From positions 53,568 through 117,567 of the forward strand of contig CAMVIM010000010.1 in the NCBI GenBank assembly GCA_947167515.1: a stretch of DNA of 64,000 nt, in the 5' to 3' direction. Made by a program: the position numbers and the translations under genes. The first letter of the stretch is position 1. Each line of letters opens with the position of its first letter. Positions 4,266 to 49,812 of the stretch are shown here, one piece after another. A model generated the notes under the pieces. That model searched no databases. It had not been told where the DNA came from and worked only from the letters and a program-made list of their open reading frames with translations. This stretch comes from an uncultured Prevotellaceae bacterium. GTDB lineage: Bacteria > Bacteroidota > Bacteroidia > Bacteroidales > Bacteroidaceae.

Positions 4266-5479
4266 AGAGCGAGCGGCAGTACATAGAACTATATCAGGAG
4301 GCAGGCGATCTCATCAAATCCAAGAGTTGCGCTGTCATGAACGCTGTGCGCGATGAAGCCTTTGCCACCTTTGAGCGGCAGGGATTTCCCACGAAGAAGG
4401 AAGAACGCTACAAATACACCGATGTGGATGCAGCCTTCTCGCCTAACTATGGCATCTCGCTCACCCCTCTAACCATTAAGCCTTCTCTCTATATATATAA
4501 TGTGAAAGATGCCCCTCTGGACATCACTCCCTACTATAACAGAGTCGCAAACACAAAAGACTCTATCACGGCACTGAATACGGCACTCGTCCATGACGCG
4601 CTCCTCATCCATGTGCCAGCCAACACACTGGTGGACGACCCCATCGTAGTGGATAACTGGCTTCGTGGAACTGCACCCACGATGACCAACCGACGCATCC
4701 TTCTCCTGATAGAAAAAGGAGCCAGTGCCACCGTCATCATCAACGACCATGCAGCCGACAAGCAGCGCTTCCTCCTCACACAGGTGGTTGAGGTCTATGT
4801 GCAGGACAACGCCCATCTCGACCTATACGAGATAGAAGAGACCCCCCCCCTGTGTTCACGCTTTTCCAACATCTACATACAGCAAGGACGCGACTCCTCC
4901 GTCAAGCACAATGCCATCACCCTCTTCAATGGGCAGACTCGCAACCTCTGCGATGTCTATCTGAAAGGAGAGGGAGCCGAAGTCACACTCAATGGATGTG
5001 CCATCGGCAGTGCCTCCCAGCGCATTGACAACAACACCCTCATCCATCATCAGGTGCCCCGTTGTCAGTCCAACCAACTCTACAAGTATGTCGTTGATGA
5101 CCATGCCGTCGGAGCCTTTGCCGGCAAGATACTTGTCGATAAAGGCGCACAGAAGACCACCTCGCAAGAGACCAACGCCAATCTCTGTGCCTCGTCCGAT
5201 GCTCGTATGTACACCCAGCCCATGCTTGAAATTTATGCTGACGATGTGAAATGTGCTCATGGCTCCACCGTCGGTGTGATGGATGAAGCAGCCCTCTTCT
5301 ACATGCGGCAGCGAGGCATCCCCGAAGTGGAGGCGCGCACCCTGCTCAAGAACGCCTTTATGGGGCAGGTCATCGACCAGATTAAGTTCGAGCCTCTGCG
5401 CCAACGGCTCTATGTGAAAGTGGAAAAACGCTTCCGCGGCGAACTCGACAAGTGTGAGGACTGCCGACTGTGCAAGTAG
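4262..5479 (+). CDS. sufD: Fe-S cluster assembly protein SufD
   Basis: 4-bp ATGA overlap with sufC; SufD C-terminus KCAHGSTVGVMDEAALFYMRQRGI. Confidence 0.95.
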   Translation: MKSERQYIELYQEAGDLIKSKSCAVMNAVRDEAFATFERQGFPTKKEERYKYTDVDAAFSPNYGISLTPLTIKPSLYIYNVKDAPLDITPYYNRVANTKDSITALNTALVHDALLIHVPANTLVDDPIVVDNWLRGTAPTMTNRRILLLIEKGASATVIINDHAADKQRFLLTQVVEVYVQDNAHLDLYEIEETPPLCSRFSNIYIQQGRDSSVKHNAITLFNGQTRNLCDVYLKGEGAEVTLNGCAIGSASQRIDNNTLIHHQVPRCQSNQLYKYVVDDHAVGAFAGKILVDKGAQKTTSQETNANLCASSDARMYTQPMLEIYADDVKCAHGSTVGVMDEAALFYMRQRGIPEVEARTLLKNAFMGQVIDQIKFEPLRQRLYVKVEKRFRGELDKCEDCRLCK

Positions 5480-6756: not shown

Positions 6757-8109
6757 ATGGCACAGAAACCAAGCATACCAAAAGGTACACGTGACTTTTC
6801 GCCTGTCGAAATGGCGAAACGCAATTACATCTTCGACACCATCCGTCAGGTCTATGCCCTCTATGGCTTTCAGCAGATAGAGACACCCGCCATGGAAAAC
6901 CTCTCCACCCTGATGGGCAAATATGGCGAGGAAGGTGACAAACTTCTTTTCAAGATACTTAACTCAGGCGATTTCCTCCATGGCATGACAGCCGACGAGG
7001 TGGCGAACACCAGCACCCTGAAACTCGCTGCCAAGTTCTGCGAGAAGGGACTGCGATATGACCTCACCGTGCCTTTCGCCCGTTATGTGGTGCAGCATCG
7101 TGAAGAACTGGCTCTCCCCTTCAAGCGTTACCAGATACAGCCCGTGTGGCGCGCTGACCGTCCGCAGAAAGGTCGTTACCGCGAGTTCTACCAGTGCGAT
7201 GCTGATGTTGTGGGCAGCGACTCCCTGCTCAACGAGGTTGAACTCATGCAGATTGTCGATACCGTCTTCACCAAGTTTGGTGTGCGTGCCTGCATCAAGA
7301 TGAACAACCGCAAGATACTATCTGGCATTGCCGAACTCATAGGACAGGCTGACAAGATAGTGGACATCACCGTCGCCATTGATAAGTTGGACAAGATTGG
7401 TCTTGATGCTGTCAATGCCGAACTCGCCGAAGTGGGCATCCCAGCAGAAGCCATCGACAAGTTGCAGCCTATCATCAGCCTCAGCGGTACGAATGACGAG
7501 AAACTCGCCACCATGCGGCAAGTGCTCAAAGACTCCGAAGTGGGTCTGAAGGGTGTGGAGGAGATGGAATACATCCTTTCCAAACTTCACGGACTGCACA
7601 ACGCCGTTGAACTCGACCTGACGCTGGCTCGTGGTCTGAACTACTACACGGGTGCCATTTTCGAAGTGAAGGCTCTCGATGTGCAGATTGGTTCCATCAC
7701 GGGTGGTGGCCGTTACGATAACCTTACAGGTATCTTTGGCATGCCAGGTCTCAGTGGCGTAGGCATCTCTTTTGGAGCAGACCGCATTTTCGATGTGCTC
7801 AACCAGCTTAATCTCTATCCCAAGGAGGCGGTCAATGCCACCCAAGTACTCTTCGTCAACTTTGGCGAGGCTGAGACGGATTTCTGCTTGCCTCTGCTTG
7901 CCCAACTTCGTGCCGCCGGTGTTCGTGCCGAAATCTACCCCGATGCCGCCAAGATGAAGAAGCAGATGAGTTATGCTAACGCCAAAGCCATCCCCTTCGT
8001 CGCTATCGTGGGCGAGAACGAGATGGCCGAAGGGAAGGTGATGCTCAAGGACATGACTACTGGCGAACAGCATCTGCTCACCCCCGAAGAGTTGGTGAAA
8101 AGTTTCTGA
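6757..8109 (+). CDS. hisS: Histidine--tRNA ligase
   Basis: [11 protein letters not shown], class II aaRS motifs, [21 protein letters not shown]; start at [10 protein letters not shown]. Confidence 0.97.
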
Positions 8110-13225: not shown

Positions 13226-14239
13226 TTACAATTTACCACTTTGCAATTTTTCCTCATCCCTTTCCCCTTGGTGGGCAAAGAGGTTGGCCAGAATCGTGCC
13301 GCTGATGCTGTGCCATGCACACGAGATGGCGCATGGCACCACTGCCATCGGGTTGGTGGCCACGAAGAAGGTCATGGCCAGATTGGTGCCGAGGCCAGCG
13401 TTCTGCATGCCCACCTCAATGGAGAGGGTGCGCTTCTTGGCGGTGGAGAAGCCACACATCCTGCCGACTGAGTAACCCAGAACATAGCCAATGGTATTGT
13501 GGCAGAACACCATGCCGAACGTGAGCAGGAAGAGCACGATGCCATTCTCCACCAGCGGGTCGTGTACCGTGGTCACCACCCCGCCCACGATGCAGGCGAG
13601 GCTGAGCACCGACACGCCAGGCATGCAGCCCTGAATCTTCTTGAACACCTCCTTATGTCCCAGCCACACGTTCAGCATGAAGCCGATGGCGATGGGGATG
13701 ATGGTCACGATGAGTATCTGCTGAAACATGCCCCACGCATCTACCTCCACTCGCTCTCCGGCCAGCCACAGCACCAGCAGCGGAGTGAGCACGGGGGCCA
13801 GCAGGGTGGAGGCGCACGTCATGCCCACCGAGTAGGCTACATCGCCCTTGCAGAGGAAGGACATGATGTTGCTCGACACGCCGCCCGGGCAGCATCCCAC
13901 CAGAATGATGCCGATGGCCATCGCCGTACTGTAAGGGGCGAAGGCTGGCACTTGGCTGAACATCCATGAGAGGGTGAATGCCACCAGCGGCATGATGGTG
14001 AACTGAGCCGCCGCACCGATGAGGATGTCCAGCGGACGCTTGGCCAGCAACTTGAAGTCGTCGGGTGTGAGCGTCAACCCCATCGTCAGCATGATGATGC
14101 CGAGAATGACCGTCTGCACATTCCCTTTCACCCACTCAAAAAGCACAGGAAAGAAGAATGTGACCACTGCCGTCAGGATAATGAACACGCTTGCCTTGCC
14201 GCTCAGGGTGTCACTGATGAATTTGAGAATCTTATACAT
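13226..14239 (-). CDS. Bile acid:sodium symporter family (BASS) protein
   Basis: MLTMGLTLTPDDFKLLAKRP, GCCPGGVSSNIMSFLCKGDVAYSVGMT; start at MYKILKF. Confidence 0.88.
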   Translation of the reverse strand: MYKILKFISDTLSGKASVFIILTAVVTFFFPVLFEWVKGNVQTVILGIIMLTMGLTLTPDDFKLLAKRPLDILIGAAAQFTIMPLVAFTLSWMFSQVPAFAPYSTAMAIGIILVGCCPGGVSSNIMSFLCKGDVAYSVGMTCASTLLAPVLTPLLVLWLAGERVEVDAWGMFQQILIVTIIPIAIGFMLNVWLGHKEVFKKIQGCMPGVSVLSLACIVGGVVTTVHDPLVENGIVLFLLTFGMVFCHNTIGYVLGYSVGRMCGFSTAKKRTLSIEVGMQNAGLGTNLAMTFFVATNPMAVVPCAISCAWHSISGTILANLFAHQGERDEEKLQSGKL

Positions 14240-26427: not shown

Positions 26428-26617
26428 CTTTATATTACGGTTTTGACTGCAAAGATGGTGAAAAAAAACATATTTTCCCCATTTTTATAGATTTTTTTTT
26501 AGGTTTTAACTAGCTTTTTGGTACATACCCGCAAAAAGGTGTTACGACACAGAAATTAAGTCTGGGGGAAAATGACGACTTTTGCGTCCGCGAAAAAATA
26601 GAAAGGTAATCGATAAA

Positions 26618-29386
26618 ATGAAAAAGAAAGAATTAGTAAGGTTTGTACGCTCATTGAGGCGGGACGGAGTGATGGGGACATGTTTCTTGTTGTGTGGCAT
26701 GTTCTTCTATCCCCAGATAGTCAAGGCACAGTTGTCCTCGAACCCTGACAAGTTCCTTGGCAACATCACCACGGGAAACAACCAGGTGGATTGGGGGGGA
26801 GTGGAACCGTTCCGCTCGCTTTGGAACCAGATTACGCCGGAAAATGCGACCAAGTGGGATGCCTGCGAACCCAGCCGGAAGAACTTCACATTTGGAGGCG
26901 CTGATGTGTCGGCTAACTACGCCAAGAAGTGGGGATTCCCCTTCAAATTCCACACGCTCATCTGGGGTGCACAATATCCCAGTTGGGTGAACAATCTTTC
27001 CACGACAGAGCAGACCAAAGCCATCACCGAGTGGTTTGATGGCGTGAAGGCGCACTATCCGAACCTCGAAATCATCGACGTGGTCAACGAAGCCATTGCG
27101 GGCCATCAGCCAGCTCCCTACAGGGCGGCTCTCGGCGGTGAAGGTAAGACCGGGTACGACTGGATCATTAAGGCGTTTGAGATGGCGCACGAGCGGTGGC
27201 CCGACGCGATTCTCGTCTATAATGACTTTAACACCTTCCGTTGGCAGAAAACGGAGTTCATAGACCTGGTTCGTACCCTTCGTGATGCGGGTGCACCGAT
27301 TGATGCTTATGGATGTCAGTCGCACGACCTGACAGACATGGGAGTAGACGACTTCAAGTCAGCCATGACGGAGATACAGAACGCGCTCAAAATGCCCATG
27401 TACAGCACCGAGTACGACATCGGCACCAACAATGATGCCTTGCAGGAGCAGCGCTACAAGGAGCAGATTCCTTACATGTGGGAGGCGGACTACTGCGCAG
27501 GTGTAACCCTTTGGGGGTATGTTTATGGGCAGACATGGACAGGCAATGAAAAGGACGGGACGAGGGGAAATTCCGGAATCATCCGTGACGGCGAGGATCG
27601 CCCTGCCATGACCTGGTTGCGCAGCTACATGCAGAGCGAGAAGGCTAAGACGGCAAAGAGTCCTTTCCCTGGCATGAAAAAGGAAGCTTCCGTTTACATC
27701 AAGCCACAAGTCTTCACCCCCACCAAAGGGGAACCTTTGACCATCACAGTCAATGCTCGTCTCCGTACCAAGACCATCGACCATATCGACCTTTATGTGA
27801 AAGGTGTGAAATACAAGACCCTCACAGAGGTGGCTTCGGTGAATGCGAAGACCCTCGATGCAGCCTATGAAACCGAATACACTCCGGCGACAGCGGGCAA
27901 GTACAACCTGAAGGCCATCGTGTTCGACACCGAGGGCAACAAATATGAACGTCTGGGTGGATTTACAGCTTACAACCCGCGCGGCCCCTATAGAGATGTC
28001 ATCGATTTGCCTGGCACCATCCAGGGCGAAAACTTTGATGCGGGCGGCGAAGGCCTCACCTATCACGATAGCGACTCACAGAATCAGGGCAGCGGATCAT
28101 CGTATCGCTCCGACGCAGGCAGTGTGGATATCGAGAGGATCAGCAGTGGCTATGCTGTGGGATGGACGCATGCCGGCGAATGGTTTGAATACACCGTAAA
28201 CGTACTTGAGCCTGGACTCTACGAGTTCGATGCCTACTGTGCTTCGCAGGACGGTGGTGGCTCGTTCTCGCTGGCGTTGAGCAACGACGGGGTGTTGACC
28301 GATTTGACGGGCGAGGTGCCTGTCAACAAGACAAGCAACTGGAGCACCTATAAGGCTATCCACGGCCGTCTGACCAGACAATTGGCGGAAGGCCAGCAGG
28401 TACTGCGTTTCACCGTCAAGAGTGGTGACCTGCTCTTCAACTTCGATAAGATAGTGCTGCGCCGCATTGAGCAGGACAATAACATTAGTATATCAATGAA
28501 AGCCGACCCAGCACCCGCCACTGTCAATACCAACACCACGCTCACGGTCACCACTTCATCAACAACCAGTGACATAGCCAACGTGAAGATATATGTGGAC
28601 AACATCTTGTTGAAAACGCTCACGGCATCACCCTTCACCACCACCTACAAGCCCACGGCCAAGGGGACGGTGAACTTCACGGCTATAGCCACCGACGCGG
28701 AGGGGAAGCAGTCGCGCATCGCCAAATACACCCTCAAGGTCAATCCCAAGCGTACACCTTACGGGACAACGCCATTGGCCATTCCAGGTATCATCCAGGC
28801 TGAACGATTTGACAAGGGCGGCGAGGGCTTCACTTTCCACGACTCCGACACCAAGGCTGAAGGCGATGGCTCATCCTACCGTTCTGATGCTGAAGGTGTG
28901 GATATTGTGAAGTGCACCAATGGTTACGCTTTGGGCTATACCGCCCAGAACGAATGGACGGAGTACACCATCAATGTGAAGGAACCTGGCAAGTATGCTT
29001 ATGTGGCTACCGTGTCTTCTGGCACCACTGGCTCCAATTTCCGCATCAGCCTCGTCAACGCCAATGGCACCCTCACCCGTTTGGCTGATGTCAGTGTGCC
29101 GAAGACGGGTAATAACGACTGGAACACCTATGGAACGGTGGAGGGCAACTTCATCAGGAATCTTGCGGAGGGTGAACAAATCCTGCGTTTCACCATCACT
29201 GGTGCTAGTTGCAACATTGATAAGGTGCAGCTGAATTGCCTCATCAATACTGACATTGACGATGTTCAGGCTGAACCCACACCTGAAGTGGCCGATGGGG
29301 TAGTTTACAACCTTGCCGGACAGCAGGTCGATGACTCCTACAAAGGCATCGTCATCAAGAATGGCCGAAAATATCTGAAGAAATAA
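26618..29386 (+). CDS. GH10 endo-1,4-beta-xylanase with two CBM6-like domains
   Basis: ITPENATKWDACEP, DVVNEAI (acid/base), STEYDIG (nucleophile); two IPG/LPGTIQ(G/A)E.FD.GGEG.T.HDSD CBM6 modules. Confidence 0.95.
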   Translation: MKKKELVRFVRSLRRDGVMGTCFLLCGMFFYPQIVKAQLSSNPDKFLGNITTGNNQVDWGGVEPFRSLWNQITPENATKWDACEPSRKNFTFGGADVSANYAKKWGFPFKFHTLIWGAQYPSWVNNLSTTEQTKAITEWFDGVKAHYPNLEIIDVVNEAIAGHQPAPYRAALGGEGKTGYDWIIKAFEMAHERWPDAILVYNDFNTFRWQKTEFIDLVRTLRDAGAPIDAYGCQSHDLTDMGVDDFKSAMTEIQNALKMPMYSTEYDIGTNNDALQEQRYKEQIPYMWEADYCAGVTLWGYVYGQTWTGNEKDGTRGNSGIIRDGEDRPAMTWLRSYMQSEKAKTAKSPFPGMKKEASVYIKPQVFTPTKGEPLTITVNARLRTKTIDHIDLYVKGVKYKTLTEVASVNAKTLDAAYETEYTPATAGKYNLKAIVFDTEGNKYERLGGFTAYNPRGPYRDVIDLPGTIQGENFDAGGEGLTYHDSDSQNQGSGSSYRSDAGSVDIERISSGYAVGWTHAGEWFEYTVNVLEPGLYEFDAYCASQDGGGSFSLALSNDGVLTDLTGEVPVNKTSNWSTYKAIHGRLTRQLAEGQQVLRFTVKSGDLLFNFDKIVLRRIEQDNNISISMKADPAPATVNTNTTLTVTTSSTTSDIANVKIYVDNILLKTLTASPFTTTYKPTAKGTVNFTAIATDAEGKQSRIAKYTLKVNPKRTPYGTTPLAIPGIIQAERFDKGGEGFTFHDSDTKAEGDGSSYRSDAEGVDIVKCTNGYALGYTAQNEWTEYTINVKEPGKYAYVATVSSGTTGSNFRISLVNANGTLTRLADVSVPKTGNNDWNTYGTVEGNFIRNLAEGEQILRFTITGASCNIDKVQLNCLINTDIDDVQAEPTPEVADGVVYNLAGQQVDDSYKGIVIKNGRKYLKK

Positions 29387-30808: not shown

Positions 30809-30952
30809 ATTTAGAATTGTTTGGATTGTTTCTTGGGTGCAAAGTTACGGAAAAGTTAGGAGTTAGGAGTCAGGAGTAGGGAATAAAATGGGTGAAAAGT
30901 GTGAGTTTTTCACTTGAAACATGTATCTTTGCACCCAATAAATGTGATTAGC

Positions 30953-33091
30953 ATGAAAAGGAAGGTACCTGTCATTATGCAGATGGAGGCGGCGGAATGT
31001 GGGGCTGCTTCGTTGGCGATGGTGTTGGCGTGGTGGGGTCGCTGGATGCCGCTGGAGAGGATGCGGGTGGACTGTGGCGTGTCGCGTGACGGGTCGAGTG
31101 CGCTCAACATCATGAAGGCGGCACGGCTGCATGGACTCTCTGCCCGTGGAGGGCGTGTGAAGGCTGACCGTCTGCACGAACTGCCCTGTCCTTGCATCTT
31201 GCATTGGGATATGAACCACTTCGTGGTGATGACGGAGTGCGGACAGAAGCGCGTCTGTCTGAACGACCCTGCCCGAGGGCGTGTGAGGATGTCGCTGGAA
31301 GAGTTGAAGGGCTACTACACGGGGGTGGCTCTGGTGTTTGAGCCCAACGAGAACTTTGTGAAGGAAGGTGCGCCAGCCTCTGTCCTGCGCTTTGTGCGCC
31401 GTCGCCTGAAGGGAGCAAGAAAGGCATTCTTCCTCTCGATGCTGATCGGGTTGCTGCTGACGCTCTCCACGTTGGCTTTCCCCATTTTCTCACAATATTT
31501 CTTAGATGTGGTGTTGCCAGGCGAGCACCCCGAGAGGTCGGGACTCTTCTTCCTGCTGCTGGGCGGTGTCATCCTCTATCAGTTGCTGATTCAGCTGTGT
31601 CAGGGCACCTATGCCAACCGACTGCTGATGAAACTGGGCATTGAGGCGAACAGCCAGTTCTTGTGGCATGCGCTGCGCCTGCCCATGCGGTTTTTCTCTC
31701 AGCGGTATGTGGGTGACATCCTCACCCGAATGCGCGGTGCGGAAAGCATCCCTGTCACGTTGGTGCGCAAGTTGGCTCCTGTGTTGGTCAACGTGGTGTT
31801 GCTGGTGGTCTATCTGGTCTTCATGGTGGTCTATAGCATGCCACTGTCGCTCGTCGCCATCGGAGCCTCGCTGGTCAATCTGCTGATGGCACGTTTCATC
31901 AGTGACAGGCAGGTGGATGTGAACCGTGTGATGGAACGTGAGATGGGTGCGCTGAACGGATTGACCATGAGCAGCGTGAAGGGGGTGGAGACCATCAAGG
32001 CGGCTGGTGCCGAAGCGGGCTTCTTCGAGCGTTGGGCCAAGCAGTACCTGCTGGCATCGGAGGCGCATATCAAGAGCGACACCTTCAGTGCCTACATGGA
32101 GTCCCTCTCACGATGGGTGGTGCTGGTGGCCGACAACCTCATTCTGGCGTTGGGTGTTTACTACATCATGGAGGGTTATCTCACCATCGGTATGCTGATG
32201 GCGTTCCAAGGTTTTGTGGGCAGTTACATGCAGCCAGTCAACGAACTGATTGGCTCCTTGAAGCAAATTCTGAACATGCGTACCCAGATGGAGCGCATGG
32301 AGGATGTCTATCGGACGGAACCCGATGTGGTTTCCACCCTGGAGGATGACCGTGACATGGGCATGGGCAAGCTGATGGGCAAGGTGGAACTGAAGCATGT
32401 GACGTTTGGCTACACCCCCATGCGTCCACCGCTCATCGAGGACTTCTCGCTCAGCATCGAACCAGGTAAGAGCGTGGCTTTTGTGGGGGCATCGGGCTGT
32501 GGAAAGAGTACGCTTGCCAAACTGATTTCGGGACTTTACGACCCTTGGGAAGGGGAGATTCTCTACGACGGGAAGCCTCGCAAGGACATCAACCGCAGCG
32601 TGTTTGTCAACTCGGTGGCGGTGATAGACCAGGACGTGGTGCTCTTCGACGGCACAGTGGCTGACAATGTGAAGATGTGGGACGAGTCCATCGAGGATTT
32701 CAGCATGATATTGGCATGCCATGATGTGCAGATGCACGAGGAGATAGCCTCACGTCCGAAAGCCTATGATACGGTGGTCTCGGAGAACGGCAAGAACTTT
32801 TCGGGCGGGCAGCGTCAGCGGCTGGAGATCGCGGCGGCCTTGGCCAAGGAGCCGACGGTGCTCATCATGGATGAAGCCACCAGTGCACTCGATGCTGACA
32901 CGGAGCAGAAGGTGATGCAGTCGCTCCGCAACTTAGGGGTGTCCCTCTTCGTCATCGCCCACCGCCTGAGCACCATTCGCGATTGCGACGAAATTATTGT
33001 GCTGGACGAAGGCCATGTGGTGGAACGAGGCACTCACCAGCAGCTGATGGAACAAAAGGGAGTGTATCATGAGTTGATGGAGAATGCGTAA
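30953..33091 (+). CDS. Peptidase C39-containing peptide-cleaving ABC transporter (PCAT)
   Basis: C39 motifs QMEAAECGAASLAMVLAWWG, HWDMNHFVVM, NDPARGRV; ABC TMD; GASGCGKSTLAKLISGLYDP and FSGGQRQRLEIAAALAKEPTVLIMDEATSALD. Confidence 0.95.
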   Translation: MKRKVPVIMQMEAAECGAASLAMVLAWWGRWMPLERMRVDCGVSRDGSSALNIMKAARLHGLSARGGRVKADRLHELPCPCILHWDMNHFVVMTECGQKRVCLNDPARGRVRMSLEELKGYYTGVALVFEPNENFVKEGAPASVLRFVRRRLKGARKAFFLSMLIGLLLTLSTLAFPIFSQYFLDVVLPGEHPERSGLFFLLLGGVILYQLLIQLCQGTYANRLLMKLGIEANSQFLWHALRLPMRFFSQRYVGDILTRMRGAESIPVTLVRKLAPVLVNVVLLVVYLVFMVVYSMPLSLVAIGASLVNLLMARFISDRQVDVNRVMEREMGALNGLTMSSVKGVETIKAAGAEAGFFERWAKQYLLASEAHIKSDTFSAYMESLSRWVVLVADNLILALGVYYIMEGYLTIGMLMAFQGFVGSYMQPVNELIGSLKQILNMRTQMERMEDVYRTEPDVVSTLEDDRDMGMGKLMGKVELKHVTFGYTPMRPPLIEDFSLSIEPGKSVAFVGASGCGKSTLAKLISGLYDPWEGEILYDGKPRKDINRSVFVNSVAVIDQDVVLFDGTVADNVKMWDESIEDFSMILACHDVQMHEEIASRPKAYDTVVSENGKNFSGGQRQRLEIAAALAKEPTVLIMDEATSALDADTEQKVMQSLRNLGVSLFVIAHRLSTIRDCDEIIVLDEGHVVERGTHQQLMEQKGVYHELMENA

Positions 33092-33112: not shown

Positions 33113-34987
33113 GTGCTGATGATTTTTAACGAACAACTGCAACAACGGACGGCTTATAACCGTCAGGCGCTGGAAGAGGCTCGGAAGGCCTTGGATGACA
33201 TGGTGGCCAAGCCTCAGAGAGACCCACGGAAGGATGGCGAGGGAAAGGGCATGCCTCATTCGGTGCGGATTGACCGACGTTTCCCCGACCGTCCCCTCAC
33301 GTTCAAGGATATTCTGTCGCTGGGATTCGAGTCCATCGACCAACGGGATGTCTTTTATCTGCTCCTGGCCTTTACCCTTGTGACGGCTGTGGGTATGGCG
33401 ACTCCCTACGTGACCGGCTGGATTTACGAGACGGTGATTCCTTCGGGAGTGTCAAGTACTGTCCTGTGGGTGTTGGGAGCACTGGTCGGCATCAGCGTGG
33501 GCACGGTCGTTTTCGAGACTGCCCGAACCATTCTGCTTCTGCGGATGCACTACAAGGTGGAGGCTTCGTTGCAGGCAGCCCTGATGGCGCGCACCTATGC
33601 TATGCCTGCCACCTTCTTCCGACGCTACACCTCTGGCGAAATCAGCAACAGGGTGATGAGCATGACTCCTCTGTGCTACTTCCTCCTCGATGGCATCGTC
33701 AGCAATCTGCTCACGCTGGTCTATTCGCTCATCTATTTCTATCAGGTTTTCTACTATGCCCACTCCCTGCTGGCAGTCAGCATCCTGATCATGCTGGTCA
33801 ATGCCCTGTTCCTGTGCTGGGAATACTGGATTCAGTACAGACAGGGACACCTCTACATGCCTCGCCAGTCGAGACTGCAAGGACTGCTTTTCTCCCTCTT
33901 CTCGGGCATTCAGAAAATCAAGACCACAGGCAGCGAGGTGCGGGCTTTCAGCAAGTGGGCAAAGGCCTATAACGAAAGCCGACCTTCAGCCTACAAGGAC
34001 TATGTGGCACGTTTTTCCACCCCCATCTCCAGCCTCATATCGGTGGCAGGCATGGCGCTCATCTACTATCAGGCGGTGGCTCATCAGGTGCCCATTCCCG
34101 ACTACATGGCGTTCTTTGCCGCCTTCGGCTTAGTCTCGTCGGGCTTCTCCACCTTGTCCCTCATCGTGCCGTCGATGGCGAATGTGAAGTCTTTGCTCGA
34201 ACTGCTCAAGCCTCTCATGGATGAAGTGCCCGAAGTGAAGGAAGAGGCTCCCAAGGTCGATTTCCTCAGTGGAGGCATAGAAGTTCACAACCTCTCCTTC
34301 CGCTATGACAAGGAATCCCCTTATGTGCTGAAAGACTTGAACCTGAAGATTCATCCAGGCGAATACGTCGCCATTGTGGGACATTCAGGTTGTGGAAAGA
34401 GTACGCTCATGCGCCTGCTCCTGGGTTTTGAAAAGCCTGAAAGCGGCTCCATCTTCTACGACACCTACAACATCGACAAGGTGGACAAGCAGAGCCTCCG
34501 TCAGCACATCGGCACCTGCATGCAGGACGGCGAACTCTTCAGTGGAAGCATCTTCAGCAACCTTACCATCACCGCTCCGCAGGCCTCGATGGAAGACGCA
34601 TGGGAGGCGGCTCGGCTGGCGGCGTTGGACAAGGATATTGAGAAGATGCCCATGAAGATGCACACCCTCTTGTCCGATGGCGGCTCTGGACTCAGCGGAG
34701 GGCAGCGTCAGCGCATCCTCATTGCCCGTGCCCTGATGAACAAGCCTGCCATCCTCTTCTTCGACGAGGCCACCAGCGCACTCGACAACCTCACCCAGAA
34801 GGAGGTGTCGCAGCATCTCGATGCCCTCCGTTGCACCCGCATCTGCGTGGCACATCGGCTCAGCACCATCATCCACTGCGACCGCATCATTCTGATTGAA
34901 GAAGGGCGAGTGGCTGAAGAAGGTAAATATCAGGAACTCATCGAAAAGAAAGGGCTGTTCTACCAGTTGGTGAGAAAGCAAATGTAG
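33113..34987 (+). CDS. Peptide/bacteriocin-type ABC transporter, permease plus ATPase, no C39 domain (NHLM ABC2-like)
   Basis: N-terminal extension, TMD, GHSGCGKSTLMRLLLG, LSGGQRQRILIARALMNKPAILFFDEATSALDN. Confidence 0.9.
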   Translation: MLMIFNEQLQQRTAYNRQALEEARKALDDMVAKPQRDPRKDGEGKGMPHSVRIDRRFPDRPLTFKDILSLGFESIDQRDVFYLLLAFTLVTAVGMATPYVTGWIYETVIPSGVSSTVLWVLGALVGISVGTVVFETARTILLLRMHYKVEASLQAALMARTYAMPATFFRRYTSGEISNRVMSMTPLCYFLLDGIVSNLLTLVYSLIYFYQVFYYAHSLLAVSILIMLVNALFLCWEYWIQYRQGHLYMPRQSRLQGLLFSLFSGIQKIKTTGSEVRAFSKWAKAYNESRPSAYKDYVARFSTPISSLISVAGMALIYYQAVAHQVPIPDYMAFFAAFGLVSSGFSTLSLIVPSMANVKSLLELLKPLMDEVPEVKEEAPKVDFLSGGIEVHNLSFRYDKESPYVLKDLNLKIHPGEYVAIVGHSGCGKSTLMRLLLGFEKPESGSIFYDTYNIDKVDKQSLRQHIGTCMQDGELFSGSIFSNLTITAPQASMEDAWEAARLAALDKDIEKMPMKMHTLLSDGGSGLSGGQRQRILIARALMNKPAILFFDEATSALDNLTQKEVSQHLDALRCTRICVAHRLSTIIHCDRIILIEEGRVAEEGKYQELIEKKGLFYQLVRKQM

Positions 34988-36366
34988 CCCACCTCTTCCA
35001 CCTCATACTCACGAGGCAGCAAATATCCGTCAATCAGCAGGGTGGGGGTGCTGCTGATGCCTGTCCGTTGGATAAATTCGTACACCTCGTCGTCTTTCTT
35101 GTCCGACAAGATGATATAGTCAATGCACAGTTGATCCTTCAGCAGTCGGGCCAACTGCCCGATGCGTGGCTTGATGCTTTGGCAGTGGGCGCAGTCAACA
35201 TGGGTCACCACCGTCAGTCGGTGAGGCGCATCGGGAATGCCCACTCGTTGGGTCACGTCGCTTTCCTCCACCTTGATGGGTGCCTTGCTCTTCAGCTTGG
35301 CCACCAGCACCGAAGGCTCATTGCGGAATGCCTGAAACACCCACTTTTGCCGACGTGCCTTCTGCTTCTGCTCCTCGCCCAGTGTCACCCAATGCGCTAA
35401 GATAATGCCCAGCCCCATCAGGAGCACGACCTTGGCGGCATGCAGTCCGAAGGGCTTGCTGCTGAAGTCCATTTCAAGGGGTGTCAGCCCTATGTGTCTT
35501 TCCCATATTTCAAAGTTGCAGATACTCACTCCTCCTTGCAGCACCAGTACCGCCACCACCAACAGGCAGAGCACACACCACTGCTTCTGTTTCCATTGCA
35601 CCACGATGCTCCAGGGGCAGAACAGCACCGCCAACACGCTGATGGCTGTCACGATGGCGCCTGATTCTGGCCACAGCGACAACGCCATCACCTGTGCACC
35701 AAAATAGCCCAGTCCCACACTGCTCAGCGACAACACACCCCCAATCTTCCCCTCCTTGCCTCGGTTGGGTTTGCATCCGTGTTCTCCCAAAGCTTGGCAC
35801 AATTTGTCACCCACACGGCTGCCGCCCCTCGTCGTTTTTTCAGCCAACAGGAAACTGATCCAGAAGCCGATCACCGCCAGCACCACCATTGCAGCCGATT
35901 TCAGCGAGGTGAAAGCGCCCCCCACAGCCAGCATGCCACCCATCGCCAACGCCATCCCCCAAGCAGGAATCTTCTCCATCCGTTCCTCCCTGCGGTTCTT
36001 CTCATAGTCAGGCTCCATCCCCTCTCCTTGTACTTTCACCAGTGCAAATCCGTCCCAGCGCCCCTGGAAGTCACTCCACGCCTCTCGCTTCCTTTCCCCC
36101 TTTTCTAAATATATAATATGTGTATCCTCCCGTCCTGTTCCCACCACGAACGCATCCTTCATGTGTAGGATACACGGAAACGACAACGTCCCTTCCTCTC
36201 CTTTAGCCACTCTGACACCCTCCATCCTGATGCCATAGCGCATCAACATCTGCTTCAGCCCCAAGAGGTTTCCGCGGTTGGGGTTGCCGTAGAAAACAGA
36301 ATCGGCATACAGGTTTGTGTAGGGCACACCTGCAGCCGATAAGAAGTCTTTCAGAATGGAATTCAA
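34960..36366 (-). CDS. Degenerate C39-like domain fused to VKOR-like membrane oxidoreductase and C-terminal thioredoxin-like domain
   Basis: N-term FPCILHMKDAFVVGTG (C39-like, catalytic residues absent), VKOR CQALGEHGC loop and WCVLC, C-terminal VDCAHCQSIKPRIGQL...TGISSTPTLLIDGYLLP. Confidence 0.82.
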   Translation of the reverse strand: MNSILKDFLSAAGVPYTNLYADSVFYGNPNRGNLLGLKQMLMRYGIRMEGVRVAKGEEGTLSFPCILHMKDAFVVGTGREDTHIIYLEKGERKREAWSDFQGRWDGFALVKVQGEGMEPDYEKNRREERMEKIPAWGMALAMGGMLAVGGAFTSLKSAAMVVLAVIGFWISFLLAEKTTRGGSRVGDKLCQALGEHGCKPNRGKEGKIGGVLSLSSVGLGYFGAQVMALSLWPESGAIVTAISVLAVLFCPWSIVVQWKQKQWCVLCLLVVAVLVLQGGVSICNFEIWERHIGLTPLEMDFSSKPFGLHAAKVVLLMGLGIILAHWVTLGEEQKQKARRQKWVFQAFRNEPSVLVAKLKSKAPIKVEESDVTQRVGIPDAPHRLTVVTHVDCAHCQSIKPRIGQLARLLKDQLCIDYIILSDKKDDEVYEFIQRTGISSTPTLLIDGYLLPREYEVEEVGYICFLTNW

Positions 36367-36402: not shown

Positions 36403-36594
36403 TTAGAGCAATCCGTATGTCCCCATACAATGGACGCGGCATTGTAGTCTCATGCGCTTCAAATTGGGGTAGGTAACATCACAGTTGTTGAGACATTCCT
36501 CCAGCATCTCATCATCATCAGAACTGCCGCCTGTGATACCAGCCAGTTCGTCATCAGACAAAGGCTGCATCAGTAAATCATTGTTCAGTACCAT
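36403..36594 (-). CDS. Double-glycine leader peptide precursor, 40-aa four-cysteine core
   Basis: MVLNNDLLMQPLSDDELAGITGG|SSDDDEMLEECLNNCDVTYPNLKRMRLQCRVHCMGTYGLL; same strand and immediately upstream of the VKOR fusion. Confidence 0.85.
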   Translation of the reverse strand: MVLNNDLLMQPLSDDELAGITGGSSDDDEMLEECLNNCDVTYPNLKRMRLQCRVHCMGTYGLL

Positions 36595-36665: not shown

Positions 36666-36698
36666 CAAATATAGGAAGAAATCGTGCATTCTTGCAAA
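36666..36698 (-). promoter_or_regulatory. Bacteroidetes-type promoter for the precursor peptide gene
   Basis: Minus strand TTTG (36698-36695), 21-nt spacer, TATATTTG (36673-36666). Confidence 0.6.
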
Positions 36699-36797: not shown

Positions 36798-37970
36798 ATG
36801 AAAACAAGAACATTCACACGCATCCTCGCAGTCCTGCTGCTCCTGCAGGCACCCCTCATGCTCACCGCACAGGAAAAAAGCGGACTCAAGCGCAAAGTGG
36901 GCAAGGCCGACAACTTCATCACCCGACTCGCCCGAAGCCAGTTCGACAGCACCTACGTGTCCCTCCCCCAGCACCGCTGGATGGTCTTTGTCAGCGGCAA
37001 CGGCTCCTACAACAAGTTCCACCTCCGTGTGCCTATGCCTGGCATCGTGGAAGACCTCGGACTCGAAGGCAATCCCGTGTTTGGCGACCGCGACATCTAC
37101 ACCTATGACATGGATCTCCATAGCGGCACCCAGTCAGCCTCCGTCGGTGTGAGCTACCGCACCCTTCGGCTCAAGTACTCCTTCAACATTGGCAAGGTGA
37201 ACGACCAGCAAATCAGCATCGAGTCCCTCGGCACTCGTTTCGGCTTCCTCGTTGACTATCGCCACACCAAGAAGATGAAGGGCGACATGTACGACCCCGA
37301 AGCAGGCATCGATGCATATCTCGACAACGCCATGACACAAGACGACCCCATGACCGCCTCTGACATCATCCGTGCAGGAACCCACCCCATCAACAAGTCC
37401 TACAACAACTTCACCCTCCTCCACCTCCAGGCACACTACGTCTTCAACTACAAGCATTTCTCCTACTCCGCAGGGCGAACCGCCTCACGCATCCAGCGCA
37501 AAAGCGCAGGTTCCCCCCTCGCCCTCATCGACTTCTACCAGAGCCGCGCCAAGTTCGAGAAAGACTTCATTGTCGGCACTGACGAGGTGTTCCGCACGTG
37601 GAAACTCTCCCTCGGCGGAGGCTACGGCTACAACTGGACACCCAACGCAGGCCGCTTCCTCGTTCAGGCATCCGTCATGCCCAGTCTCACCTTCTTCAGC
37701 CACTCCAAGCACCGCGCCACCCTCACCAATCTGACCGAGGACGAGCAGGAAGAAGCCGACGAAGAGATGAAACGAGTGGCCGACATGGTCGATGGCAGCA
37801 AAATCACCCTCAACTGCACCGCCCGACTCTCCACCACATGGAACATCAACAAGCACTATGTGCTCGGAGCCTACGGCAGTTACCAGTACAGCTACTTCAC
37901 CAACAAAGCCCACTACAAAATCAAGGAAAACTACTTCAGCGGCTCCGTCTGGGTAGGCTACAGGTTTTAG
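36798..37970 (+). CDS. DUF4421 family protein, predicted outer-membrane beta-barrel
   Basis: FDSTYVSLPQHRWMVFVSGNGSYN; signal peptide; C-terminal aromatic YFSGSVWVGYRF. Confidence 0.8.
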   Translation: MKTRTFTRILAVLLLLQAPLMLTAQEKSGLKRKVGKADNFITRLARSQFDSTYVSLPQHRWMVFVSGNGSYNKFHLRVPMPGIVEDLGLEGNPVFGDRDIYTYDMDLHSGTQSASVGVSYRTLRLKYSFNIGKVNDQQISIESLGTRFGFLVDYRHTKKMKGDMYDPEAGIDAYLDNAMTQDDPMTASDIIRAGTHPINKSYNNFTLLHLQAHYVFNYKHFSYSAGRTASRIQRKSAGSPLALIDFYQSRAKFEKDFIVGTDEVFRTWKLSLGGGYGYNWTPNAGRFLVQASVMPSLTFFSHSKHRATLTNLTEDEQEEADEEMKRVADMVDGSKITLNCTARLSTTWNINKHYVLGAYGSYQYSYFTNKAHYKIKENYFSGSVWVGYRF

Positions 37971-38169: not shown

Positions 38170-40170
38170 ATGAATGTACGTAACACTTTGCAGGCCCTTG
38201 CGCTTGCAGCAACACTCGGAGCACCCCTGTCGGCAGCGGCACAGCAGGTGAAAGCTCCTGCGGGTGGAAAGCCCATCAGTGACGAACTTCTCGGCATCTT
38301 CTTCGAGGACATCAGCTATTCGGCTGACGGTGGACTCTATGCCGAACTGATACAGAACGGTTCGTTCGAGTTCAACCCCAACGAGCGTGACGGCTGGGGA
38401 CCCTCCACGGCGTGGAAGATGATTCGTCCCGGGCACTCGCTTGGCATGCTGGAGGTGAAGATGGATTCTCCCATCCACCCCAACAATCCCACCTATATGC
38501 GTCTGCACACCGAGCGTGTGAAGGAGTACCATGACTATGCCGGCTGGAAGGGCTTCGGTCTGGAAAATGGCGGTTTCGACGGCATCAGCGTGAAGGCTGG
38601 CGCCCAATATGACTTCTCGGTTTTCTTCCGCAACATCGGTGCTGCCAAGCAGGTGCGCGTGGTGCTGGCTCAGCCGCAAGGTTGGGGCAAAGACCCCAAG
38701 CTGTTGGCAGAAACCACCCTCGACGTGAACGGCACGGGCTGGAAGAAGTATGAGGCAGTGCTCACTCCCAGCGAAGACTGCACGAATGCTGTCCTTCAGA
38801 TGCTGGTGCTGACGGTGGGCGACCTCGATGTCGATATGATTTCCCTCATGCCTGAAGACACCTATAAGGGGCATGGCCTGCGCAAAGACCTCGCCGAAGC
38901 CCTCGAAGGCTTGCAGCCCAAGTTCATGCGATTCCCTGGCGGATGCGTGGTGCATGGCGGTGGCGACGGTTTCTGGAACACCTACCGCTGGAAGACCACC
39001 ATCGGTCCCAAGGAACAGCGTCGTGGACTGAAGAACACATGGGGCTACCACCAGTCGATGGGTCTGGGCTACTTTGAGTACTTCCAGTTCTGCGAAGACA
39101 TGGGCATGGAACCTCTGCCCATCCTCCCCTGTGGAGTGAGCTGCCAGGGTGCCAACGGTGGCTGGAACATGTGGCCCACTCAGGCACAGGATGTTTGTCC
39201 GATGGAGGACATGGACGAGTGGACACAGGATGCCCTCGACCTCATCGAGTGGGCCAACGGCGACGTGACCACCACTTGGGGCAAGAAGCGCGCTGAGCAG
39301 GGACACCCCAAACCCTTCGGCCTCAAGTATCTCGGCATCGGCAACGAGGAGAAGATCACCCCGGAGTTTGAGGAGCGTTTCAAGTATATGTATGAGCGAA
39401 TCATGGCCAAGTATCCCGACATCATCATCGTCGGCACCGCAGGTCCTGGTTCTCACAAGGGCAATCCCGACTACGAGGCTGGCTGGAAAGTGGCTGAGGA
39501 AACGGGTCTCCCCATCCTCGATGAACACTACTACGAGCAACGCGACTACTTCCTCAACAATCAGCAGAACTACGACAGCTATCCCCGCGACCGCAAGACC
39601 AAGGTCTATCTGGGCGAGTATGCCGCCAAGGACAAGAAACTGGCCGATGCCCTCTACGAAGGCCTCTACCTGCTGGGGGTGGAGCGCAATGGCGACGTGG
39701 TGACCATGACCAGCTACGCACCTCTCTTTGCCAAGAAAGGACATGAGTCGTGGAACCCCGACCTCATCTACTTCGACAACGAGCGTGTCATCCGCACCTG
39801 CAGCTACTACATCCAGCAGATGTTCGGCATCACTTCGGGACAGTACTACTATGGCGATGTGGCTCAGTTTGAAGGTGGCGACAAGTACCAGGGAACCTCT
39901 GCTGTGCTCAACACCAAGAAGGGCGAGCTGTACATCAAGCTCATCAATGCAGCAGCCGATGCCAAGACTGCCACTATCGACCTGAGCAAGTTCAAGGGCT
40001 TCCCCTCCAAGGCCACGATGACCACCATCGGTGGCTCGTCGCTCGACGCCGAGAACAATTTCGACGCCCAGCCCATCGCACCCATCGGCAAGGAAATCAA
40101 GATTTCCAAGAAGATGACCCTCTCCGTGGCACCTTACTCTGCCAACCTGATTTGTCTGAAGGTGAAATAG
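38170..40170 (+). CDS. GH51 alpha-L-arabinofuranosidase
   Basis: LLGIFFEDISYSADGGLYAELIQNGSFE, FPGGCVVHG, LGIGNEE. Confidence 0.94.
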   Translation: MNVRNTLQALALAATLGAPLSAAAQQVKAPAGGKPISDELLGIFFEDISYSADGGLYAELIQNGSFEFNPNERDGWGPSTAWKMIRPGHSLGMLEVKMDSPIHPNNPTYMRLHTERVKEYHDYAGWKGFGLENGGFDGISVKAGAQYDFSVFFRNIGAAKQVRVVLAQPQGWGKDPKLLAETTLDVNGTGWKKYEAVLTPSEDCTNAVLQMLVLTVGDLDVDMISLMPEDTYKGHGLRKDLAEALEGLQPKFMRFPGGCVVHGGGDGFWNTYRWKTTIGPKEQRRGLKNTWGYHQSMGLGYFEYFQFCEDMGMEPLPILPCGVSCQGANGGWNMWPTQAQDVCPMEDMDEWTQDALDLIEWANGDVTTTWGKKRAEQGHPKPFGLKYLGIGNEEKITPEFEERFKYMYERIMAKYPDIIIVGTAGPGSHKGNPDYEAGWKVAEETGLPILDEHYYEQRDYFLNNQQNYDSYPRDRKTKVYLGEYAAKDKKLADALYEGLYLLGVERNGDVVTMTSYAPLFAKKGHESWNPDLIYFDNERVIRTCSYYIQQMFGITSGQYYYGDVAQFEGGDKYQGTSAVLNTKKGELYIKLINAAADAKTATIDLSKFKGFPSKATMTTIGGSSLDAENNFDAQPIAPIGKEIKISKKMTLSVAPYSANLICLKVK

Positions 40171-40303: not shown

Positions 40304-40398
40304 TCCACTTCACATGCTTTTTCTTGCCTGTTCTTGCTCCTTCGCCGCCAAGGCAGCTTGGAAAAACGATAATTCCCAACAATTGACAATAATTTTAT

Positions 40399-46751: not shown

Positions 46752-46935
46752 AAATTCGTTCAATTTTAATTTGCCCGCAGGGCGATGTAGTTTTTTATGT
46801 TCTTGCTCCTTCGCCGCCAAGGCGGCTTGGAAAAACGATAATTACCGACAATTACCAAAAATTGGTTTCAATAATAATTATTGGATAAAATTATTGTCAA
46901 CCTTCAGCTCGGCGTAGCCAATTATTGGTAATTGT
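46752..46935. repeat. Composite repeat with cloverleaf-type module (copy D) and flanking inverted repeat
   Basis: ttcgttcaattttaatttgcccgcagggcgatgt; gccgccaaggcggc hairpin; aaaaacgataattaccgacaattacc against ggtaattgttgtttttcg. Confidence 0.75.
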
Positions 46936-47391: not shown

Positions 47392-48426
47392 TTAGTTTGT
47401 GGAGGATGGGGTGTTGACTGTTCCCCCGTTTGATTGTGCCAGGAACTCGGTGATGTGCTGCCGTAGCCGTTGGTAGATGTCGCAGTCCTTGTATTGGGTG
47501 TTGCGGCGGAGCATCTGGTCGGGTTGGAACTGGCTGTGGGAGTAGCAGGCGAGTTCGTTGTTCATCTGCTGGTTGTTGCCTCGTGCGAGGAGCTTGATGT
47601 CTTTCTCCCGTTCGCGTCGCAGGATGGTGCAGACGGGGGTGAGGGCGGCATCGACCACGTTTTCCATGAGGTGGTGGCCCTGGATGAAGAGGTAGGTGTT
47701 GTCTTTGTGTACGCCGAGCTGGGCCAGTTCCTGCTTGAGGGGGGTGAGCTTGCCTTTGGCGTCCTTCACGTGCTGCTGGAGCCATGCGAGCTTGCGGTTC
47801 ACCTGCCGGCGCACCCGTTCGAGGGCGTCGAGGGGCTTGTAGATGTTGAGCTGCTCGACGGACACGATGTTGTTGAAGTTGGTGAGGGGGAAGTCGTTGA
47901 AGCGTCCCTTGCGATGGAGCCAGATGAGCCAGATGAAGAGTTCGTAGATGATTTCGGAGTACTGCCGCAGGTATTCCTCGAAGTTGAAGAGGTTGCGGTC
48001 GTTGAGGGTGGCCATCACGCACACGTTGTGGAGTGAGGGTGCATAGCACTGGTAGCTCTCGATGGAGTAGGCGTAGGTGTGGATGACGTAGGGGTTGTTG
48101 AGCATGCGGGCTGACGAGGGGGTGTGTCCTTGCAGCAGGTAGTCGAGGTCGGCATCCACACAGGCTATCATGTAGCCGCCCAACGACTCGCCGAGACGGT
48201 TCATCAGGGCGGTTTTCTTGCCTCGGTTGAGGTTGGTGCGTGAGGGGAGCATCACCTCGAAGGCGGTCTGTTGGTCCTCAAACTCGCTGAGCACGCTGCG
48301 CCAGAAGAAGATGTCGTCGTAGGACTCTACATAGGCGACAATCTTCCGCTTCTTCGTCTGGGGACGCAATCGGTTGGCTGCCTCGATATAGGCGGAACTG
48401 ATGTTGGAAAGCAGATGACGAGCCAT
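47392..48426 (-). CDS. DUF4435 domain protein (Toprim-like)
   Basis: KIVAYVESYDDIFFWRSVL, MIACVDADLDYLL; downstream of an AAA ATPase on the same strand. Confidence 0.85.
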   Translation of the reverse strand: MARHLLSNISSAYIEAANRLRPQTKKRKIVAYVESYDDIFFWRSVLSEFEDQQTAFEVMLPSRTNLNRGKKTALMNRLGESLGGYMIACVDADLDYLLQGHTPSSARMLNNPYVIHTYAYSIESYQCYAPSLHNVCVMATLNDRNLFNFEEYLRQYSEIIYELFIWLIWLHRKGRFNDFPLTNFNNIVSVEQLNIYKPLDALERVRRQVNRKLAWLQQHVKDAKGKLTPLKQELAQLGVHKDNTYLFIQGHHLMENVVDAALTPVCTILRREREKDIKLLARGNNQQMNNELACYSHSQFQPDQMLRRNTQYKDCDIYQRLRQHITEFLAQSNGGTVNTPSSTN

Positions 48427-48460: not shown

Positions 48461-48788
48461 TAATTATTGAAGTTTCGGGAGTTTTTTTGAACCACGGATT
48501 ACACGGATTACACAGATTGGCTTCGCCTTTCTCCTTCGCACCTCGGTCAATCAAGCTAGCTTGTTGACACTCGGTTTGGCGTCGGTTTTTCTTCGCTTAT
48601 GAGTAAGCTATTACACAGATTCTATTTTGATTGCACAGATTCAGAGTCGTGGACGACTCTTGTAATCATCCGGATGGGCTTTCGCCAAGAAAGCAGTAAA
48701 TCCGTGTAATCTGTCAAAATCAGAAGGATTAAATCTGTGTAATCTGCTTAATCTGTGGTTCTATTTAACTTCCGAAAGTTGAATTAAT
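48461..48788. repeat. MITE-like repeat copy 3 between the AAA and DUF4435 genes
   Basis: taattattgaagtttcgggag...aaccacggattacacggatt ... aatctgcttaatctgtggttctatttaacttccgaaagttgaattaatta. Confidence 0.8.
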
Positions 48789-49626
48789 TACTAATGTCTC
48801 CCACTTCTGTCACGTTGCCCATCCAGCCGTCCATGATGAGGGCGGGGGAGTGGGTGGAGAGGATGATTTGGACGTTGGGGTTGAGCTGGCGGATGAGGTC
48901 GATGAGCCGTTGCTGCCAGTCGATGTGGAGGGAGATTTCGGGTTCGTCCATCAGGAGGGCGTAGGGTTCGCGGTCTTCCACCAGCACGGTGAGCAGGATG
49001 GCGAGCATCTGTTTCTCGCCGCTGGAGAGCTGGTAGGGGGTGATGACCTCGGTGGTGCCGCTCGGGTTGGTCTGGATGAACTGTATCTCGTTGCTCTTGC
49101 GGTCTATCTTCTTCTGGGTGTCGGCAAAAAGCTCGTCAATCATGTCCTGGAACTGCTTCTTGGGGGCGCTGACTTCGGCTGCCTTCTGTTGCTCGTCGGG
49201 GTCGCCGCCGCTGAGCAGTTCGATGATGCGGTTGCCGATGTTGACCTGATAGTCGAGGTATCGCTTTTGCAGGCGGTAAATCTGCCAGTCCAGTTCGGTC
49301 TTCACCCGCGAGTCGGAGAGTTTTTCGAGCAGGTCGCTGTGGAGCAGGGGACGGTCGAAAGAACGGATGACGTCGAATTTGATGTAGGTGGCGTCTTCGG
49401 GCATCAGCTTGATGCGCACCCCCTGTGGGGCATCGCCTGGCACGAGTTCTCCCTTGTCGATGGCATCGAGCATGCGGGCCGAGTGGTTGATGATGGTGCT
49501 CTTGCCCACACCGTTGATGCCGCTGAGGATGTTCACGTCGGGCTGCAGCTCCCATGTGACGTGTCTGCCGCCCTTCCACAAAGCCTTGATTTCGATGCTT
49601 TGGATGTAGTCTGCTCTTTTTCTCAT
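48784..49626 (-). CDS. AAA family ATPase (ABC/SMC-like, OLD-type)
   Basis: LSGINGVGKSTIINHSAR, PYQLSSGEKQMLAILL, ALLMDEPEISLHIDWQQRLID, STHSPALI. Confidence 0.9.
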   Translation of the reverse strand: MRKRADYIQSIEIKALWKGGRHVTWELQPDVNILSGINGVGKSTIINHSARMLDAIDKGELVPGDAPQGVRIKLMPEDATYIKFDVIRSFDRPLLHSDLLEKLSDSRVKTELDWQIYRLQKRYLDYQVNIGNRIIELLSGGDPDEQQKAAEVSAPKKQFQDMIDELFADTQKKIDRKSNEIQFIQTNPSGTTEVITPYQLSSGEKQMLAILLTVLVEDREPYALLMDEPEISLHIDWQQRLIDLIRQLNPNVQIILSTHSPALIMDGWMGNVTEVGDISN

Positions 49627-49812
49627 GGTCTTGTTCTTTGGTTGATATTGCAAAAGTACAAAAAAGTTGGGAGTTAGGTGTGAGGAGTTGAGAGTTTTTT
49701 TGTCATTCGATATATTTTTTCGTTCCGAAGAAGCATTTTATTCATCACAACTCACACCTAACTCCAAACTTTTTCTTACCTTTGCACTCGAATTACAACA
49801 AAGGACTGTTTT

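Follow-up and report, generated by a model that had tools for sequence, protein, structure and literature searches.

What does a gene for a small peptide with four regularly spaced cysteines do in the genome of an uncultured Prevotellaceae bacterium of gut or rumen type? The gene lies in a 64,000-nucleotide stretch of contig CAMVIM010000010.1 (the window), and our leading answer, to which we give a probability of about 0.6, is that its product is the precursor of a bacteriocin-like peptide that is locked by disulfides and exported. The open reading frame (ORF) proposed by the initial annotation, which gave no strand, was borne out and lies on the minus strand (Table 1). It starts with ATG and translates to MVLNNDLLMQPLSDDELAGITGG/SSDDDEMLEECLNNCDVTYPNLKRMRLQCRVHCMGTYGLL*. 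The sequence contains the proposed 23-residue leader with its terminal GG as well as the two CX3C motifs, 13 residues apart, with cysteines at positions 11, 15, 29 and 33 of the 40-residue core. Up to the GG, the leader follows the hydrophobic/acidic pattern of double-glycine leaders, both in this sequence and in an alignment of six related peptides. TIGR01847, the generic bacteriocin leader model of NCBIfam, aligns exactly to residues 10–23 and scores 15.4 bits against a cut-off of 15.7. The segment KRMRLQCRVHC had been described as basic, and it is; the core as a whole is nevertheless acidic (net charge −3, counted as K+R−D−E). Scans of NCBIfam and Pfam returned no family above cut-off for the peptide. 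A match to the Pfam family SAMP (E 0.02) was rejected as below threshold and functionally implausible.

Since the ORF is short and carries no family annotation above cut-off, we considered that it may be no gene at all, merely a chance reading frame with a chance cysteine pattern. No other small ORF in the window has the leader pattern, and none has a twin CX3C motif either. First-order Markov simulation of 64-kb sequences, repeated 40 times, gave mean ORF counts per window of 0.78 with twin CX3C, 4.2 with the leader pattern and 0.0 with both; no simulated ORF combined the two. The decisive evidence is conservation. Because the peptide is conserved in four genomes at saturated dS, together with its promoter and its gene neighborhood, the chance reading is refuted to the point of being negligible, and the ORF is a real gene.

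Including the window, the family comprises six peptides in four genomes. The relatives are found on contigs DGSP01000029.1 (G014, Prevotellaceae MAG UBA4359; one peptide), CAJOGQ010000019.1 (G023, a sheep MAG; two tandem peptides, a and b) and CADAPC010000041.1 (G025, RUG13499; two tandem peptides, a and b). Ten alignment columns are invariant: M1, D14, E16, L17, A18, G22 and the four cysteines. All six peptides keep these cysteines and five of the six keep GG, the leader of G025b ending in GA, so that the homologues leave the initial annotation standing. Four peptides have a spacer of 13 residues between the CX3C pairs and the other two a spacer of 14. A fifth cysteine is present in one relative, leaders of the relatives measure 21–23 residues, and cores measure 40–48 residues with four cysteines across the family. 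The window peptide and that of G014 (60% identical) differ by dN 0.27 at dS 3.6 (saturated), and both are under purifying selection. Divergence is higher in the core (dN 0.38) than in the leader (dN 0.10).

The rapid evolution of the peptide defeats pattern scans, so we sought its relatives through the protein encoded next to it, P0002. No further family members were detected in 399 genomes of the family and 393 of the order, and the restriction of the family to four genomes counts against our leading answer. The peptide-family alignment found no relatives among viral contigs, nor did the peptide sequence alone among genome contigs. Matches with E 0.01–1 in most of 50/200 genomes, and weak alignment matches in G116, G411, G461 and G771, were rejected as chance or leader-only; the match in G116 is an ORF with a GG leader (MKKNFMNALSNEELAKINGG...) that lacks the twin CX3C.

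At all four loci, the genes form a cassette of identical order, namely DUF4421, peptide(s), P0002, ABC2 and ABC1. The DUF4421 gene diverges from the peptide gene(s), P0002 follows these, and a convergent ABC2–ABC1 pair completes the cassette. Orthologues of the peptide, P0002, ABC1 and ABC2 co-occur in exactly the same 4 of the 45 genomes of the genus, with order and orientation unchanged. In G023 and G025, the stop codon of the last peptide overlaps the start of P0002 (TTGA and GTGA, respectively), by which peptide and P0002 look translationally coupled. In G014, peptide and P0002 are separated by a stretch with tandem TTAGGAGT-like repeats (L041, about 6850–6985) that the other loci lack. 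The best-conserved block upstream of the peptide genes at all four loci is TTCTTCCTAYATTTG. Bacteroides promoters take the form TTTG followed by TAnnTTTG; the four loci share TTTG (TTTC in G023), a spacing of 20–21 nt and then TAnnTTTG. This pattern is unique in the window, with 0 occurrences expected by chance.

Table 1. Features of the peptide cassette, in positions of the window
Feature	Position	Strand	Evidence or detail
Peptide gene, 63-aa precursor	36403..36594	−	ORF, stop 36403-36405; conservation in four genomes; dN/dS
Double-glycine leader, 23 aa, MVLNNDLLMQPLSDDELAGITGG	36526..36594	−	Alignment of relatives; near-threshold TIGR01847
Core, 40 aa, CX3C-X13-CX3C, predicted hairpin	36406..36525	−	AlphaFold2; invariant Cys11, 15, 29, 33
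Bacteroides-type promoter	36666..36698	−	−33 TTTG 36695-36698; 21 nt spacer; −7 TATATTTG 36666-36673
P0002, 468 aa, TTG start	34960..36366	−	Domain model; fold and sequence matches; invariant Cys
P0002, catalytically dead C39-like domain	about 36031-36366	−	
P0002, six-TM VKOR-like core	about 35374-35979	−	
P0002, thioredoxin domain	about 34972-35250	−	
ABC1, peptidase-C39 ABC exporter	30914..33091, probable ATG start 30953	+	Orthologue in all four cassette genomes
ABC2, ABC exporter half without peptidase, NHLM_ABC2-like	33113..34987	+	TIGR03797 638 bits, below cut-off 709
DUF4421 secreted protein	36798..37970	+	PF14391 1.4e-29

The claim of a C39-type leader gains support from this cassette, in which ABC1 (P0003) matches the C39 exporter model TIGR03796 above its cut-off (874 bits) and Peptidase_C39 with E 5e-33. 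By these domain matches, ABC1 would cut the leader and export the peptide. ABC2 is its probable partner; its tail overlaps P0002 convergently by 28 bp, and its orthologues of more than 60% identity within the genus occur solely in the four cassette genomes. Elsewhere in the genus, the closest ABC1/ABC2 pair (G041, 45–51% identity) lies in a locus that, by ORF reading, has HlyD- and TolC-like genes. The cassette itself has neither an HlyD adaptor nor a TolC gene, and a search of the window's own genome for an NHLM-type HlyD gave nothing above cut-off; both absences count against our leading answer.

The DUF4421 protein is, as judged from its sequence, probably an outer-membrane barrel and a candidate factor for immunity or for passage through the outer membrane. 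The flanks of the locus beyond DUF4421 differ among the cassette genomes, and DUF4421 relatives are also found away from the cassette (G022, G034 and G031; near queA in two). Because the copies from the four cassettes group together in a single clade (support 96/96), we rejected the notion that DUF4421 is a mere chromosomal neighbor and kept it, with low confidence, as a member of the cassette.

The initial annotation had also suggested a helical hairpin similar to alpha-hairpinins. AlphaFold2, given the six natural cores, modeled helices at residues 2–18 and 23–36 with a mean pLDDT of 91.8, which supports this suggestion. A fold look-up in the PDB gave four matches, three of which (9q1l_C, 7uv1 and 7uv3) are alpha-hairpinin-type hairpins from vicilin leaders; 9q1l_C superimposes on the core with TM scores of 0.78/0.81 and 1.0 Å rmsd. 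All these matches have E >1, a consequence of the very short chain. The sole match of a sequence-profile search against the PDB was BWI-2c, an alpha-hairpinin trypsin inhibitor (E 2.1). These similarities to plant peptides are pointers, not homology. The cysteines mirror each other across the loop (11+33 = 15+29), as nested pairs require, and the putative disulfides would be Cys11–Cys33 and Cys15–Cys29. That these disulfides are probably real is argued most strongly by the putative disulfide oxidase gene that adjoins the peptide, which the initial annotation had not noticed. YGNGV is absent from all six cores, and the initial annotation was right to reject a pediocin-type peptide.

The adjoining gene encodes P0002, which we propose to be a dedicated disulfide oxidase for the peptide. 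Its fold matches include 3zua (HlyB C39-like), 6mpz, PCAT1, 4nv5 (Synechococcus VKOR) and thioredoxins. 6mpz, the LahT C39 domain solved with a bound leader, also matches residues 38–111 by sequence (E 0.004), and proteins of thioredoxin fold match the C-terminal part, about residues 363–463. An alignment reading of the C39-like domain found no catalytic cysteine at the expected place in 14 of 14 homologues. This dead domain, similar to the domain by which double-glycine exporters bind leaders, may instead bind the leader. P0002 contains the loop cysteine pair, the CXXC in a TM helix and the thioredoxin CXXC of VKOR-thioredoxin proteins; C190/C198, C264/C267 and C392/C395 are invariant in 14 homologues. 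The thioredoxin motif reads CAHC in the window and CPHC, a DsbA-type motif, in the three cassette relatives. In the window protein, PF07884 (VKOR) falls below detection, a point against our leading answer; paralogues match it over the same segment with E 1e-11 to 1e-13. Paralogues, including one from the window's own genome (L046), exceed the Pfam thresholds for C39, VKOR and Thioredoxin_4. The C39-VKOR fusion is probably already present as an architecture in domain databases. Our literature search, which covered few subscription papers, turned up nothing on its association with GG peptides or on how it is oriented in the membrane.

On which side of the membrane would such an enzyme act? A six-TM model of P0002 places the C39-like domain, the catalytic loops and the thioredoxin domain on one side. 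For 24 C39-VKOR homologues, we counted K+R over the loops and 15-residue flanks. TM positions were assigned by alignment to the modeled protein; sliding-window counts missed one helix in many homologues. In 24 of 24 proteins, the catalytic side carries 10–19 K+R and the far side 0–2 (window P0002: 19 and 2), whereas ordinary VKOR-thioredoxin proteins of the same phylum show the reverse (3–5 vs 10–12). By the positive-inside rule, this bias would place the catalytic side of P0002 in the cytosol, an assignment that depends on this rule, on a model of pLDDT 73 and on short far-side loops. P0002 thus departs by its K+R bias from the VKOR-thioredoxin oxidases, whose catalytic side lies outside the cytosol. 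No signal peptide precedes the C39-like domain. Together, the sequence features suggest that oxidation of the peptide may be guided by the leader and occur before export. The classical order, in which disulfides form in the periplasm after export through a DsbA/DsbB- or VKOR-like system and the C39-like domain of P0002 has some other role, has nearly an even chance of being correct. It draws on the match of the P0002 model to 4nv5 and on the fact that the structurally known VKOR-thioredoxin proteins, such as Synechococcus VKOR, act outside the cytosol; the K+R bias, opposite to that of the ordinary controls in all 24 proteins, and the lack of a signal peptide speak against it.

The comparison with other C39-VKOR loci extends beyond this cassette. 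When loci were scored by pattern and by-eye reading for an ORF with a GG leader and two or more cysteines in the core near a C39-VKOR gene, such multi-cysteine peptides were found in about 26 of 28 Bacteroidota loci (17/18 in Bacteroidales, 9/10 in the rest of the phylum). None of eight ordinary VKOR loci had a convincing GG peptide; the few ORFs there that passed the pattern lack a believable leader. Some of the neighboring peptides are labeled bacteriocin-like or RiPP by NCBIfam (NF047798, TIGR04149). We tentatively propose, as a possibility short of even odds, that Bacteroidota possess a leader-guided, cytosol-facing oxidase of which the twin-CX3C hairpin would be one client in a phylum-wide system. 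The leader would be recognized by the dead C39 domain, and the disulfides would be closed before export by a six-TM VKOR of inverted topology whose thioredoxin domain lies in the cytosol.

Several of these loci have features of their own. The window's genome contains a second C39-VKOR-thioredoxin gene (L046 8014-9618; C14:78000-79600), which adjoins another multi-cysteine GG peptide (7739-7963, MRKLKRFCLSSSCESLCNEAMIEIVGG...) and a C39 ABC exporter of its own. Three to five different multi-cysteine GG peptides surround a single C39-VKOR gene in L054 (14074-17931), L057 (5984-13333) and L058 (4719-5540), which suggests that one oxidase serves several peptides. In L048, 122-aa ORFs with the same start flank a C39-VKOR gene (4999-5367 and 13581-13949), a possible within-locus duplication.

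How the exported peptide may act is the remaining part of the question. In our leading answer, the leader would address the precursor both to the ABC1/ABC2 exporter and to the C39-like domain of P0002. P0002 would oxidize the four cysteines, with the quinone pool as electron acceptor, and thereby close the two nested disulfides that would lock the two-helix hairpin, a step that probably precedes export. ABC1 would then cut after the GG, ABC1 and ABC2 would release the 40-residue hairpin, which most likely inhibits related Bacteroidales, and DUF4421 may serve immunity or outer-membrane passage. Of the functions offered by the initial annotation (bacteriocin, signal or immunomodulator), the context favors the bacteriocin-like one; the immunomodulator found no support. 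The acidic core, unlike most class II bacteriocins, and the lack of a recognized immunity gene in the cassette count against this choice.

These two features are shared by a different explanation, in which the hairpin is a pheromone-like secreted signal that kin sense and that regulates expression: the core is acidic rather than cationic, there is no obvious immunity gene, and C39 exporters also carry pheromones (ComA/ComC). Yet the cassette encodes neither a sensor kinase nor a response regulator, and both the faster divergence of the core and the two dissimilar tandem peptides in two genomes (one basic, one acidic/neutral) fit weapons better, which makes a signal improbable. The same tandem genes, present at two of the four loci with charges of +3/+5 (a) and −2/0 (b), could also mean that the basic and the acidic or neutral hairpins of G023 and G025 act together as a two-component bacteriocin. 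The window peptide would then act alone, with an unlinked partner, or be a remnant. No second copy was found in the window's own genome, and the single peptides of the window and G014 are both under purifying selection. We consider this arrangement unlikely, if a shade more plausible than a signal.

The bacteriocin-like peptide that we favor finds its closest counterpart in the bacteroidetocins, class IIf bacteriocins described by Coyne et al. in 2019 (PMC6671954), which target BamA (PMC8546649). Deletion of the thiol oxidoreductase in bacteroidetocin regions attenuates toxin activity, which counts in favor of our reading, and these regions likewise have no immunity gene (PMC6671954). Both systems occur in Bacteroidales and combine a short GG-leader precursor, a core of about 40 residues with four cysteines, a C39 ABC exporter, a membrane protein and a thiol oxidoreductase, without an immunity gene. 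They differ in leader length (23 residues here and 21–23 in the relatives, against 15–16) and in the helical twin-CX3C core, a distinction drawn from published descriptions. Bacteroidetocin mature peptides are 42–53 residues long with at least two cysteines (here 40–48 with four). In addition, bacteroidetocin regions have a separate five-TM protein and thiol oxidoreductase and one ABC/peptidase gene, in place of the single fused C39-VKOR-thioredoxin protein and the two-gene NHLM-like pair found here.

Glycocins such as sublancin and glycocin F share the GG leader, PCAT export, a helical hairpin with nested disulfides and thiol oxidoreductases in the cluster. Their cysteine pairs are CX6C and their Cys or Ser is glycosylated, whereas the present peptides have CX3C and the cassette has no glycosyltransferase. 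The class II microcins of Enterobacterales are similar in coming from Gram-negative bacteria with a GG leader, C39 ABC export and often disulfides, but they use an HlyD-type adaptor, TolC and the general DsbA, and have no C39-VKOR protein. By analogy, our best reading is that the peptide may work like a bacteroidetocin or a class II microcin. It departs from the bacteroidetocins in two defining features, leader length and gene make-up, and has no pediocin box. We file it as a new form of the double-glycine, disulfide-bonded, bacteriocin-like peptides.

Plant alpha-hairpinins have a four-cysteine motif CX3C-X4-20-CX3C with two disulfides (PMC11591084). The core has this motif and a predicted helix-loop-helix, but it differs from the plant peptides in its bacterial origin, GG leader and C39 export and has no detectable homology to them. 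The similarity is presumably convergent, and we found no description in the literature of an exported peptide of this shape in Bacteroidales. P0002 resembles the VKOR-thioredoxin oxidases of the 4nv5 type in its four VKOR cysteines and fused thioredoxin domain, and differs from them in carrying a dead C39 domain and an additional TM helix and in its inverted charge distribution.

Bacteroides lack general machinery for disulfide-bond formation, according to Coyne et al. (PMC6671954), and yet many of their exported peptides have at least four cysteines. A C39-VKOR-thioredoxin enzyme beside nearly every such peptide would explain how these are oxidized, and offers a handle for finding new anti-Bacteroidales peptides through their partner enzyme. 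If the inverted topology holds true, disulfides would form in the cytosol on a leader-tagged client, reversing the usual order of export and oxidation.

The window contains further elements outside the cassette. An anti-phage PARIS pair consists of an AriB-like DUF4435 gene (47392-48426, minus strand; PADLOC E 1.8e-59) and an AriA-like ATPase gene (48784-49653, minus strand; 5e-56), both of which also occur near the G023 cassette with 86–88% identity. A 66-nt direct repeat (91%) occupies 40329-40394 and 46798-46863, and several 32–34 nt repeats (CATTTGCCCGCAGGGCGATGTT) are scattered around a large surface protein gene between 45345 and 47037. The cassette is flanked by genes for a GH10 xylanase with CBM6/CBM35 and an alpha-L-arabinofuranosidase (26582-29386 and 38170-40170), which fit a plant-fibre-degrading host.
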